This document shows, piece after piece, positions 11,517-37,901 of a stretch of 64,000 nucleotides of DNA. The stretch's first letter is position 1; every line of letters starts with the position of its first letter. The notes below the pieces were generated by a model. The model did no database searches and had not been told where the DNA came from. It saw nothing but the letters and a program-made list of their open reading frames with translations. This stretch comes from Thermaerobacter subterraneus DSM 13965 (lineage in GTDB: Bacteria; Bacillota; Sulfobacillia; Thermaerobacterales; Thermaerobacteraceae). The stretch lies in assembly GCF_000183545.2 (NCBI RefSeq), contig NZ_JH976536.1, positions 1-64,000 on the forward strand. Reading direction: 5' to 3'. The position numbers and the translations under genes were made by a program.

Positions 11517-11770
11517 CGCGCGAGCGGAGCGGCACGAGCCACCCTGCGGTGCGCGTGGTGCGCAAGAAGTCTTGATCCAACACCAAGACAAAGGGAGCCC
11601 GGCTCTCCGCGGCCTGCGTCCATGCCCCCACGGTCAGGGGACGGGCAAGACGGTCGTGGGAGGGCACCCACCTGTGGGGGAGCGGGTTCAAAGACTCTGG
11701 CGCCACGGCACACGCGGGGTGGGCCTTTTGACAGGCATCCGGCCGGGCAGGGACCCGGCCGGTTTTGTAT
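11517..11770 (+). ncRNA. ssrS: Probable 6S RNA (regulator of RNA polymerase)
   Basis: A roughly 250-base transcript is bounded by a good promoter and an intrinsic terminator and contains no credible gene. Its first 60 bases can pair with its last 70 over a long, interrupted rod: the CCACCC and GCGTGGTGCGC region near 11541-11562 pairs with the complementary stretch near 11700-11724, continuing through a TCTTGA/TCAAAGA block. The middle is more open. That rod with a central bulge is the shape of 6S RNA, which binds the sigma-A holoenzyme. B. subtilis 6S-1 RNA (bsrA) is encoded next to aspS, the same place. The call rests on shape and position, not on a covariance model. It is somewhat longer than the usual 180-200 bases. 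Confidence 0.62.
11739..11767 (+). terminator. Intrinsic terminator of the 6S-like RNA
   Basis: A perfect 9-bp G+C stem (11739-11747 with 11754-11762, six-base loop) is followed directly by TTTT and then GTATT. It is the clearest classical terminator in the window. Confidence 0.85.
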
Positions 11771-33544: not shown

Positions 33545-33573
33545 TTAATGGCTTTTCCCCTCGCTCCGATAAT
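33545..33573 (+). promoter_or_regulatory. Candidate promoter for degS-degU
   Basis: TTAATG (33545-33550) and GATAAT (33568-33573) are separated by 17 bases in an A+T-rich spot between yqeG and degS. If real, transcription starts near 33580, which rules out the upstream ATG at 33548 as the degS start. Confidence 0.48.
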
Positions 33574-33603
33574 CCGGGAAGAATCCCGATCATCCGGGAA
33601 GAA
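33568..33603 (+). repeat. Tandem 16-bp direct repeats ahead of degS
   Basis: GATAATCCGGGAAGAA (33568-33583) is repeated as GATCATCCGGGAAGAA (33588-33603), 20 bases apart start to start. They overlap the candidate -10 and start site. Two direct repeats two helical turns apart are a common layout for a response-regulator binding site, possibly DegU acting on its own operon. Confidence 0.65.
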
Positions 33604-33643
33604 CGGGGCACCGGCGCCCGCCGGCGTCCGGTGCCGGCCGGCG

Positions 33644-34837
33644 GTGGTGCGGGTGGAGGCGGCGGTCCCGGGTTCCCTCGACCCCGTGGCGCTGGACCGG
33701 GTCCTGCGCGAGACCCTGACGGCCGTGGAGCGCGGGCGGGAACAGGTCTTCTTCATCGCCGAGCAGGCCCGGGAGGAATACCGGGAAGCGGCCCGAGAGC
33801 TGGACGAGGTCCGGGCGCAGGTGGCAGAGCTCATCGCCCAGGTGGACGGCCTGGCCCGCCGGCAGCAGCAGGCCCGGCTGCGGCTGGTGGAGATCTCCCG
33901 CCACTTCCAGCGCTACGGCGAGGAAGCCTACCGCGAAGCCTACGAGGAGGCGATGCGGCTCCACGAGGAATGGGTACGGGCCCAGGAGCGGGAAGCCCAG
34001 CTGCGCCACCGCCGGGACGAGCTGGAACGGCGGTTGCGCCGCCTGGGCGAGACGGTGCGGCGGGCGGAGGAGCTGGCCGGTCACATCCGCCTGGCGCTGG
34101 AGCTGCTGTCGGGCAAGCTGGGGCAGCTTTTGGGCCAGGCGGCGGACCTCCAGCGGCGGCTGCAGGTGGGCCTGATGCTGCTCCAGGCCCAGGAGGAAGA
34201 GCGGCGCCGGCTGGCCCGGGACATCCACGACGGCCCTGCCCAGATGCTGGCCAACGTGGTGTTGCGGGTCGAGGTCTGCCAGCGGCTTCTGGACGAGGAC
34301 GTGGGCCGCGCCCGGGAGGAACTGGAGCGCCTCAAGGCCCTGACCCGGGAGAGCCTGCAGGACGTGCGCAAGATCATCTTCGACCTGCGGCCCATGGCCC
34401 TGGACGACCTGGGGCTGATTCCGGCCCTCCGGCAGTATGTGGCGGGCTTCGTCGACAAGACCGGACTCGAGGTGGAGCTGGTGACCCGCGGGGCGGCCCG
34501 CCGGCTCGACCCCGCCGTGGAGATCACGGTCTACCGCGTCCTTCAGGAAGCGCTGAACAACGTGTGGAAGCATGCCGGCGCCAGCCGGGTGGTCATGCGG
34601 GTGGAGTTCGCCGCACGGCGGCTGTGGGCGGAGGTAGCCGACGACGGCTGCGGGTTCGACCCCGCAGCGCCCCGCGGCGCCGATCGCTTTGGTCTGGCCA
34701 ACATGCAGGAGCGGGTGGCCATGGTGGGCGGCCGCATCGACATCCAGAGCCGCCCGGGGCAGGGCACGCGGGTGCGCCTTGAGATCCCGCTGGGGAGGGA
34801 AGAAGACGGCCATGCCGATCCGGGTCCTGATCGCTGA
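33644..34837 (+). CDS. degS: Sensor histidine kinase DegS
   Basis: This cytoplasmic kinase (397 residues; B. subtilis DegS 385) has no membrane segment. A long N-terminal sensor coiled coil (about 10-185) resembles DegS closely. The HisKA_3 box RRRLARDIHDGPAQMLANV places the phosphorylated histidine at 195. The ATPase domain has QEALNNVWKHAGAS (N box), DDGCGFD (G1) and FGLANMQERV (G2). The start is uncertain. GTG 33644 is preferred by family length and by the promoter position, but it lacks a clear Shine-Dalgarno. An in-frame ATG at 33548 would add 32 unconserved residues. It overlaps degU by 26 bases. Confidence 0.9.
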   Translation: MVRVEAAVPGSLDPVALDRVLRETLTAVERGREQVFFIAEQAREEYREAARELDEVRAQVAELIAQVDGLARRQQQARLRLVEISRHFQRYGEEAYREAYEEAMRLHEEWVRAQEREAQLRHRRDELERRLRRLGETVRRAEELAGHIRLALELLSGKLGQLLGQAADLQRRLQVGLMLLQAQEEERRRLARDIHDGPAQMLANVVLRVEVCQRLLDEDVGRAREELERLKALTRESLQDVRKIIFDLRPMALDDLGLIPALRQYVAGFVDKTGLEVELVTRGAARRLDPAVEITVYRVLQEALNNVWKHAGASRVVMRVEFAARRLWAEVADDGCGFDPAAPRGADRFGLANMQERVAMVGGRIDIQSRPGQGTRVRLEIPLGREEDGHADPGPDR

Positions 34838-35468
34838 CGACCACGCCCTCCTGCGGGAGGGCCTGCGCCAGGTGCTCCACCTGGAACCGGACATCGAGGT
34901 GGTGGGCGAGGCGCGCAACGGGGCCGAGGCCGTCCGCCACGCCGCCCGGTTGCGGCCCGACCTGGTGGTGATGGACATCAACCTGCCCGACATGTCGGGC
35001 ATCGAGGCGACCCGGCAGATCCGGGCGGCCTCCGCCTCGACCCAGGTGCTGGTGCTGACCATCCACGACCAGGAGGAGTACCTGCTGGAGGCCATTGCCG
35101 CCGGTGCCAGCGGGTTCGTCCTGAAGGACGTGGAGCCCCGCACCCTGGTGGAGGCGGTGCGCCTGTGTTGCCGGGGCGAGGGTTACGTCCACCCCACCCT
35201 GTCGGCTCGTGTCCTCAACCTGGGCACGCGGCGGCGGGAGCGGTGGACCCCCCTGGGCGGGGGCATCCCCGAGCCCCTGACCCGCCGGGAGTTCGAGGTG
35301 CTGCAGCTGGTGGCGGAGGGCGTTTCGAACCGGGAGATCGGCCAGCGGCTCTTCATCAGCGAAAAGACGGTGAAGAACCACATCACCTCGATCTTCCGCA
35401 AGCTGGGCGTGGCCGACCGCACCCAGGCGGTGATCCACGCCATCCGGGAGGGCTGGGTCAAGGTCTAG
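34812..35468 (+). CDS. degU: Response regulator DegU (NarL/LuxR family)
   Basis: The 218-residue regulator has a receiver domain with phospho-acceptor Asp55 (VVMDINLPD), acidic pair DD near the N-terminus and Lys in FVLKD. A LuxR-type helix-turn-helix contains LTRREFEVLQLVAEGVSNREI and SEKTVKNHITSIFRKL. It resembles DegU over its full length. In Bacillus, DegS-DegU controls exoenzymes, motility, competence and biofilm. Here it lies directly upstream of a pilus locus, with only a terminator and a group II intron between, so pilus control is a reasonable inference. GGGAGGGA upstream supports the ATG. Confidence 0.92.
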   Translation: MPIRVLIADDHALLREGLRQVLHLEPDIEVVGEARNGAEAVRHAARLRPDLVVMDINLPDMSGIEATRQIRAASASTQVLVLTIHDQEEYLLEAIAAGASGFVLKDVEPRTLVEAVRLCCRGEGYVHPTLSARVLNLGTRRRERWTPLGGGIPEPLTRREFEVLQLVAEGVSNREIGQRLFISEKTVKNHITSIFRKLGVADRTQAVIHAIREGWVKV

Positions 35469-35505: not shown

Positions 35506-35538
35506 GGGGCGGCCGGCCCGGAGGGGGCCGGCCGCCCC
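35506..35538 (+). terminator. degU terminator hairpin and intron target
   Basis: A perfect 14-bp stem (35506-35519 with 35525-35538) has a 5-base loop and begins 37 bases after the degU stop. The group II intron begins six bases further on, the position at which class C introns typically insert. Confidence 0.8.
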
Positions 35539-36092
35539 GCTGCTGTGCGCCCGGCATGGGCGAGTGCTAAGGGGTGAAAGTCCCCTGCGGAGGGTGGCCC
35601 CGTACAACCGCTAGCCGAAGGCAAGGGTGCCCGCGGCGACGCGGGATCCGAAGGAAGCCGGAGGCAAAGTCGCGACCCGACGACCAGGAACCGCGGGCGA
35701 GGCAGCGCCGACTGGGCGAGCCGGCAGCACACGGCGAAGCCCGAGATGGGCCGAAGGGCGGCGCTGTAAACGCGGCGGGTGTGCGACGAAAGTACTCGTC
35801 CTTACCCGGGGAGGCCTGCCGGCAGGCCAGCATGGATGGCAACCCGTGACCGCAAGGCGCGACTGAGCCGGCAGGAGTCAGCAGAGGCCATAGTACCGCT
35901 GGCAATGCCGGCGGGAAGGGCCGAACGTCGAGTCCGGGAGGGTGCGGGCGCGTTCGCGCCGGGTGCAAGGAGAGCAGCCAACCCGAGAGGGTCTCGCTCA
36001 GGAGGCGGTGGTGAATCCCTCCGGGGCCTGTGCGAGAGCGGAGCACCTGGCCGGGACAGACCGGCGACCCCCCCAGCGGAGGGCGTGGTAGT

Positions 36093-37355
36093 GTGGACCT
36101 GATGGAGCAGGTGGTGGCCCGGGAGAACATGTGGGCCGCCCTGCGACGGGTGGAGCAGAACCGGGGCGCACCGGGCGTCGACGGCATGACCGTCGAGCAG
36201 TTGCGCGGTTTTCTGCGGGAGCAGTGGTCGCAGGTGCGTGCCCAACTGCTGGCGGGAACCTACAAGCCGCAGCCGGTCCGCCGGGTGGAGATTCCCAAGC
36301 CCGGGGGCGGCACGCGCCTACTGGGTATCCCGACCGTCCTGGACCGCCTGATCCAGCAGGCTTTGCTGCAGGTGCTGACGCCGATCTTCGACCCCGACTT
36401 TTCGGAGCACAGTTACGGCTTTCGGCCGGGACGTTCCGCTCACCAGGCGGTCGAAGCGGCGCGGCGGCACGTCGAGGAAGGGTACGCCTGGGTGGTCGAC
36501 CTGGACCTCGAACAGTTCTTTGACCGGGTGAACCATGACGTCCTGATGGCCCGGGTGATGCGGAAGGTTGCGGACAAGCGCGTCCGGATGCTCATCCGCC
36601 GCTACCTGCAGGCCGGCGTGATGGTCGGCGGGGTGAAGGTGCGGACGGAGGAAGGTACGCCCCAAGGCGGCCCCCTGAGCCCGCTTTTGGCCAACATCCT
36701 GCTGGACGAGCTGGACAAGGAGCTGGAGCGGCGGGGACACCGCTTCGTCCGTTACGCGGACGACTGCAACATCTACGTTCGCTCGGAACGGGCGGGGCAC
36801 CGGGTCATGGCGGGAGTGCGACGCTTCCTCGAAAAGCGGCTGAGGCTCAAGATCAACGAGCAAAAGAGCGCGGTGGACCGGCCCTGGCGACGCAAGTTCC
36901 TCGGCTTCAGCATGTACCGCGGCCGGGAAGGCATCCGCCTGCGCGTGGCCCCGCAAACGGTGCAGCGGCTCAAAGACCGCATCCGCGGCCTGACGAGCCG
37001 GACCTGGCCGGTTTCCATGCCCGAGCGCATCCGCCGGATCAATGCCTATCTGCGGGGCTGGCTCGCTTACTTCCGCATCGCGGACATGGCGGTCCTGCTC
37101 CGCAACGTGGAAGGTTGGCTCCGGCGACGCTTGCAGGCGTGCCTTTGGAAGCAGTGGAAACGGCCGCGTACCCGGTTGCGGGAACTGCGAGCCCTGGGCC
37201 ACCCCGAGTGGCGGGTCCGGCAGTGGGCCCTGTCACGACGCGGGTACTGGGCCATGGCCGGTGGCCCGCTCAACAGCGCCCTGGGCAAGCCGTACTGGCT
37301 CGCCCAGGGGCTGCTGAGCCTCACTCGATGCTACCACGAACTTCGCCGTGCTTGA
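36093..37355 (+). CDS. ltrA: Group II intron reverse transcriptase/maturase (GsI-IIC-like)
   Basis: The 420-residue protein matches the Geobacillus GsI-IIC enzyme in length and nearly throughout in motifs: PGVDGMTVEQLR, VEIPKPGGGTRLLGIPTV, FGFRPGR-type box as YGFRPGRSAHQAV, TPQGGPLSPLLANILLDELD and the active site YADD at 221-224. The thumb/maturase X domain follows (SMPERIRRINAYLRGWLAYF). There is no C-terminal HNH endonuclease, as expected for class C. The GTG at 36093 is chosen because GGAGGG lies nine bases upstream and the protein then lines up end to end with GsI-IIC. It copies the intron and helps it splice. Confidence 0.94.
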   Translation: MDLMEQVVARENMWAALRRVEQNRGAPGVDGMTVEQLRGFLREQWSQVRAQLLAGTYKPQPVRRVEIPKPGGGTRLLGIPTVLDRLIQQALLQVLTPIFDPDFSEHSYGFRPGRSAHQAVEAARRHVEEGYAWVVDLDLEQFFDRVNHDVLMARVMRKVADKRVRMLIRRYLQAGVMVGGVKVRTEEGTPQGGPLSPLLANILLDELDKELERRGHRFVRYADDCNIYVRSERAGHRVMAGVRRFLEKRLRLKINEQKSAVDRPWRRKFLGFSMYRGREGIRLRVAPQTVQRLKDRIRGLTSRTWPVSMPERIRRINAYLRGWLAYFRIADMAVLLRNVEGWLRRRLQACLWKQWKRPRTRLRELRALGHPEWRVRQWALSRRGYWAMAGGPLNSALGKPYWLAQGLLSLTRCYHELRRA

Positions 37356-37356
37356 C

Positions 37357-37427
37357 GAACCGCCCGGTGCGGACCCGCATGCCGGGTGGTGTGAGAGGAC
37401 GGGGCCTTCACCGGCCCCTCCTACTCG
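37357..37427 (+). other. Intron domains V and VI (catalytic core and branch point)
   Basis: 37357-37392 folds as domain V: ACC/GGT and CCCGG/CCGGG stems, a TG bulge, and GCG/CGC closing a GACC loop. 37395-37427 folds as domain VI, GAGG-GGGGCC with GGCCCC-CCT-CTC, leaving adenine 37423 unpaired as the lariat branch point. Confidence 0.75.
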
Positions 37428-37580
37428 ATTGGGGCCAGCCTTACCGGGTCCCACCCGAGCCCCTGCCGGCGGGAACCGCCTGGAAGCCACCCGGCATGGC
37501 CCGCGCGGGTGGCCCCCTGGGACCCGGGTCCCGGCCCCCCATTGGGACCTGGGGACCGCGGAAACGCGACCTTCAGGCCA

Positions 37581-37700: not shown

Positions 37701-37901
37701 ATGCTGCGGCTCATGGCCTGGTGGGAGGGCGTGAAGTTCCGCCTGCGGGATGAGGCGGGACAGGGCATGGTGGAGTACGGGCTGATCATTGCCCTCATTG
37801 CGGTGGTCCTGATCGGTGCGCTGGTGGCCATGCAGGGCGGTTTGAGCGCCATCTTTGAACGGGTATCGACAACGCTGGAGAAGGCTGCCCAGTCTGAATA
37901 A
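37701..37901 (+). CDS. flp: Flp-type pilin of Tad locus A
   Basis: This 66-residue type IVb prepilin has a short basic leader ending in AG, then QGMVEYGLIIALIAVVLIGALVAM. Cleavage after that Gly would leave Glu at +5 and Tyr at +6, the Flp hallmark, followed by one hydrophobic helix. It should be the major pilus subunit, processed by a TadV/CpaA prepilin peptidase (not in the window) and assembled at the membrane. AAAGGAGGG eight bases upstream is a very strong ribosome-binding site, fitting high expression. A large hairpin follows before tadE. Confidence 0.92.
   Translation: MLRLMAWWEGVKFRLRDEAGQGMVEYGLIIALIAVVLIGALVAMQGGLSAIFERVSTTLEKAAQSE

Follow-up and report, generated by a model that had tools for sequence, protein, structure and literature searches.

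Within the window, the 64,000-nucleotide stretch of Thermaerobacter DNA that was analyzed, a degS-like kinase gene and a degU-like response regulator gene are followed by a stem-loop and by a group IIC intron of 1,885 nt that encodes a reverse transcriptase (RT)/maturase (Table I). A Flp/Fap pilin gene lies downstream of the intron (37701-37901, +), and past it are open reading frames judged by eye to be TadE-like and secretion ATPase-like. The window also holds a 6S RNA gene (11538-11724, +; RF00013, 84.5 bits).

Table I. Features at the intron locus, in window coordinates
Feature	Position	Strand	Description
degS-like kinase gene, upstream of the degU-like gene	33548-34837		DegS domain
degU-like response regulator gene, upstream neighbor	34812-35468	+	Response_reg and GerE domains
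14-bp stem-loop, predicted to direct insertion	35506-35538	+	Fold z -3.57; no U-tract after it
IBS1, TGCT	35541-35544	+	Pairs with EBS1 AGCA; covaries among copies
Group IIC intron, complete	35545-37429	+	Common ends in five copies; empty site; Rfam
Ribozyme domain I region	35630-35800	+	RF02001, 122.9 bits, full length
EBS1, AGCA	35726-35729	+	Pairs with IBS1 TGCT; equivalent loop examined in relatives
Further core domains of the ribozyme	35840-35921	+	RF01998, 60.4 bits, full length
Intron-encoded RT/maturase	36093-37355	+	420 residues; GTG start; YADD; no endonuclease
Mosaic tract	36318-36545	+	Matches the L008/L009 intron subfamily; 20 consecutive informative sites
Domains V and VI	37358-37429	+	RF00029, 40.4 bits
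Candidate IBS3, T	37430	+	Base 1 of the 3' exon; T in 5/5 copies

The intron opens with GTGCG at 35545 and closes with CTACTCGAT at 37429. These GTGCG...GAT termini satisfy the GUGYG 5' end and AY 3' end of group IIC (bacterial class C) introns, and the first and last bases are common to all five full-length copies in the Thermaerobacter genome. In the genome of a sister species, G003, the degU-side site is empty and the exons are joined exactly across 35544/37430; the joined flanks of the window copy match it at 96% over ∼1,170 bp, gapless at GCTGCT/TGGGG. This empty site fixes both ends of the intron, and because it is gapless the insertion was exact and later than the split from G003, or the intron is cleanly absent there. 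The start at 35545, six bases past the end of the stem at 35538, had been proposed in an earlier sequence-only reading of this DNA and proved exact to the base. We regard the window copy as a recently inserted, intact mobile intron.

The same reading had placed the intron behind a degU terminator, and this claim stood in part. The 14-bp stem-loop is present, it is separated from the intron by 6 nt, and insertion occurred 3' of it; the stem is, however, followed by GCTGCT rather than a U-tract, and a terminator scan of the site was negative. Since the U-tract is missing, a role as intrinsic terminator is unproven, and the stem resembles a terminator but is not of the canonical U-tract type. Sites of IIC introns include terminators without a U-rich tail (PMC8919778), and a U-tract is not required for membership in the class because attC and stem-only sites serve too.

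Rfam recognized the domain I–IV core of the ribozyme in two pieces, RF02001 and RF01998, both well above their gathering scores, and domains V–VI by RF00029, only just above its gathering score of 40; these models do not separate intron classes. The region 37353-37429, covering domains V and VI, gave a fold z of -5.07; domain V contains a 2-nt bulge, and domain VI carries a bulged, unpaired A at 37423, the predicted branch point. The bases of domain V that align to the catalytic triad are CGC (37361-37363), the IIC form of the triad. Both ribozyme ends, domain V and the branch-point A were therefore recovered as the earlier reading had described them, and neither a break in domain V or VI nor a mismatch in EBS1-IBS1 was found. 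A crystallized ribozyme of this class is that of the IIC intron of Oceanobacillus iheyensis, the 5' end and domain V of which we take to be very similar to those of the window intron.

A domain search of the 420-residue RT found RVT_1 and GIIM (maturase) only, with YADD at residue 221 and no endonuclease domain, as expected from the earlier reading. The frame is open without stops, all RT motifs are present, and dN/dS between copies is 0.07–0.12, indicating that the RT is under purifying selection. A microRNA match inside the RT gene was below threshold and was taken as chance. The proposed likeness to the RT of GsI-IIC (Geobacillus stearothermophilus, PDB 6AR1, the TGIRT enzyme) was borne out over the full length of the protein, with 65.5% identity across 418 aligned residues in an end-to-end alignment. 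Both enzymes have a maturase domain, lack an endonuclease and belong to a IIC intron of a thermophile; about one-third of the residues differ.

Five full-length copies of the intron and a single relic are present in the Thermaerobacter genome, all of them following a stem-loop; the earlier reading had suggested looking for further copies behind other terminators. The relic (L011, G000:C1:1854292-1854462, -) matches roughly the first 240 nt of the window intron at 79% identity; it lies behind a strong stem-loop and has no RT left. The site of copy L008 is empty in G003 and that of L009 is empty in all three congeners, whereas comparison of joined flanks with the congeners gave no full empty site for L007 or L010. 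These empty sites reveal past mobility. The three other Thermaerobacter species compared lack the RT. G003 does retain a ∼470-nt 5' intron fragment, 94% identical (L147, G003:C1 near 2127423), beside what by eye appears to be an isocitrate lyase gene, and hence the intron family was in the genus earlier. A literature search for group II introns in Thermaerobacter turned up one review-type paper and none devoted to these introns.

The class C insertion rule, invoked in the earlier reading for the window copy, extends to every other copy in the genome: all five sit just 3' of a stem of 10–18 bp that ends 2–10 nt before the intron. Across relatives, a stem of at least 7 bp ending within 14 nt upstream was found at 62/70 loci, compared with 185/1,700 control sites. 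EBS1 and IBS1 pair perfectly over 4 bp in the window copy and in L010 (AGCA/TGCT), and the pair is ACAA/TTGT in L008 and L009. Perfect pairing was found in 30 of 57 distinct loci across relatives (shuffled mean 4.6, maximum 13), a statistic that ignores kinship of the loci. The 57 include four own-genome copies with misplaced automatic 5' ends, none of which scored perfect, so that 30/57 is if anything too low; for the comparison within the genome, these four were recomputed with exact ends. Pairing of 3–4 bp between IBS1 and EBS1, with a stem replacing IBS2, is described for IIC introns, and TTGT/T is a common IIC site in attC (PMC7923331). One full-length copy departs from the rule: L007 (G000:C1:1219450-1221334) carries EBS1 AAGG, which does not pair with its own IBS1 CGCT. 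Its EBS1 perhaps changed after insertion, and because of this mismatch some copies may lack competence.

The window copy is also a mosaic of two subfamilies. Among the sites that distinguish the four copy types, the 20 consecutive ones of the mosaic tract group it with L008/L009, and a run of that length occurred in 0/100,000 permutations; elsewhere in the RT gene it matches L007 at 99–100%. Gene conversion from an L008-like copy is the likeliest cause, and RT template switching is a possible alternative. Conversion over ∼700 bp, involving copies of a group II intron, has been published (PMC3522654), and gene conversion of this kind is already known.

Taken together, we favor, at a probability of about 96%, an intact mobile group IIC intron of bacterial-C type in Thermaerobacter, with exact boundaries, an empty site, spread over several copies, covarying EBS1/IBS1 and an intact frame under purifying selection, and with the splicing and mobility mechanism set out here. 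By analogy with studied IIC introns, the intron RNA would fold into a IIC ribozyme, and its splicing, with lariat formation, would be aided by the intron-encoded RT/maturase. The resulting RNP would reverse-splice into a DNA site immediately 3' of a stem-loop, with four base pairs between EBS1 and IBS1, and a T at IBS3, setting the exact insertion base. The RT would then copy the inserted intron from host primers, since it lacks an endonuclease. Ta.it.I1 of Thermoanaerobacter italicus, likened to the window intron by description, is likewise a IIC intron of a thermophile that recognizes its exons by IBS-EBS pairing and a terminator stem-loop; it has been biochemically reconstituted, with lariat formation reported to depend on its intron-encoded protein (PMC7161350). 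Outside the host, the nearest RTs are those of the MAG ZC4RG38 and Moorella mulderi (73 and 69% identity, respectively), whose introns also lie behind stems but differ from the window intron in EBS1 and in insertion sites. The class C, stem-loop-directed, endonuclease-less and GsI-IIC-like character ascribed to the intron earlier is thus found in all its parts (ends, domain V, bulged A and RT). Its biology follows known rules, and it is an ordinary member of a well-known family.

Three alternatives were weighed against this interpretation. The window copy could be structurally complete but now inactive, a recent insertion whose splicing or RT has since been disabled by a mutation or by the converted tract. 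Its mosaic structure, the mismatched EBS1 of its sister copy L007 and the relics in the Thermaerobacter genome and G003 are in keeping with such a loss, which we nevertheless consider improbable in view of the open frame with all RT motifs, the perfect EBS1-IBS1 pairing, the intact domains V and VI and a dN/dS of about 0.1. The RT gene could instead have been domesticated, serving the host while the ribozyme is carried along as a passenger; purifying selection on the RT would fit, and host roles are on record for group II-like RTs (PMC12337344). We rejected this as very improbable, because the RT is missing from the three congeners, the sister site is empty, and the complete ribozyme with target-site covariation is what is expected of a mobile element. 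That the intron belongs to another group II class (IIB or bacterial E) and lies behind its stem by chance, a reading left room by the class-blind Rfam models, was dismissed as hardly credible, given that the best solved relatives of the RT are IIC enzymes (624 and 393 bits; the IIA LtrA scored 150 and a maturase RT of 562 residues 132), that EBS1 has 4 bp and that a stem precedes every copy.

As the host is a Thermaerobacter, its thermophily is well founded, and the genus grows hotter than the source of GsI-IIC: T. marianensis grows at 50–80 °C with an optimum of 75 °C (PMC3035304). The window-intron RT may accordingly tolerate heat, and by analogy with studied introns its activity at high temperature, possibly near 75 °C, and splicing in vivo are sound predictions. 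For Afl RT, whose host grows at ∼60 °C, 30 min at 70 °C left only 10% of the activity (PMC10813441). It is a tentative and rather doubtful proposal that the family diversifies its target choice within one genome by EBS1 switching and exchange of subfamily tracts, and that its RT, working near 75 °C, ranks with the most heat-tolerant enzymes of the GsI-IIC type. Group IIC RTs of thermophiles are the source of the TGIRT-seq enzymes, and an intact five-copy family with two covarying specificities, in a genus whose type species has its growth optimum at 75 °C, offers a practical starting point for a hotter RT and perhaps also for a heat-tolerant targeting intron.

More distant relatives within the same taxonomic class have as many as 25 related introns per genome. 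One of them, with a 3.6-Mb genome (G028), has 25 RF02001 introns of mostly equal score; a related intron apparently multiplied there in a recent burst.
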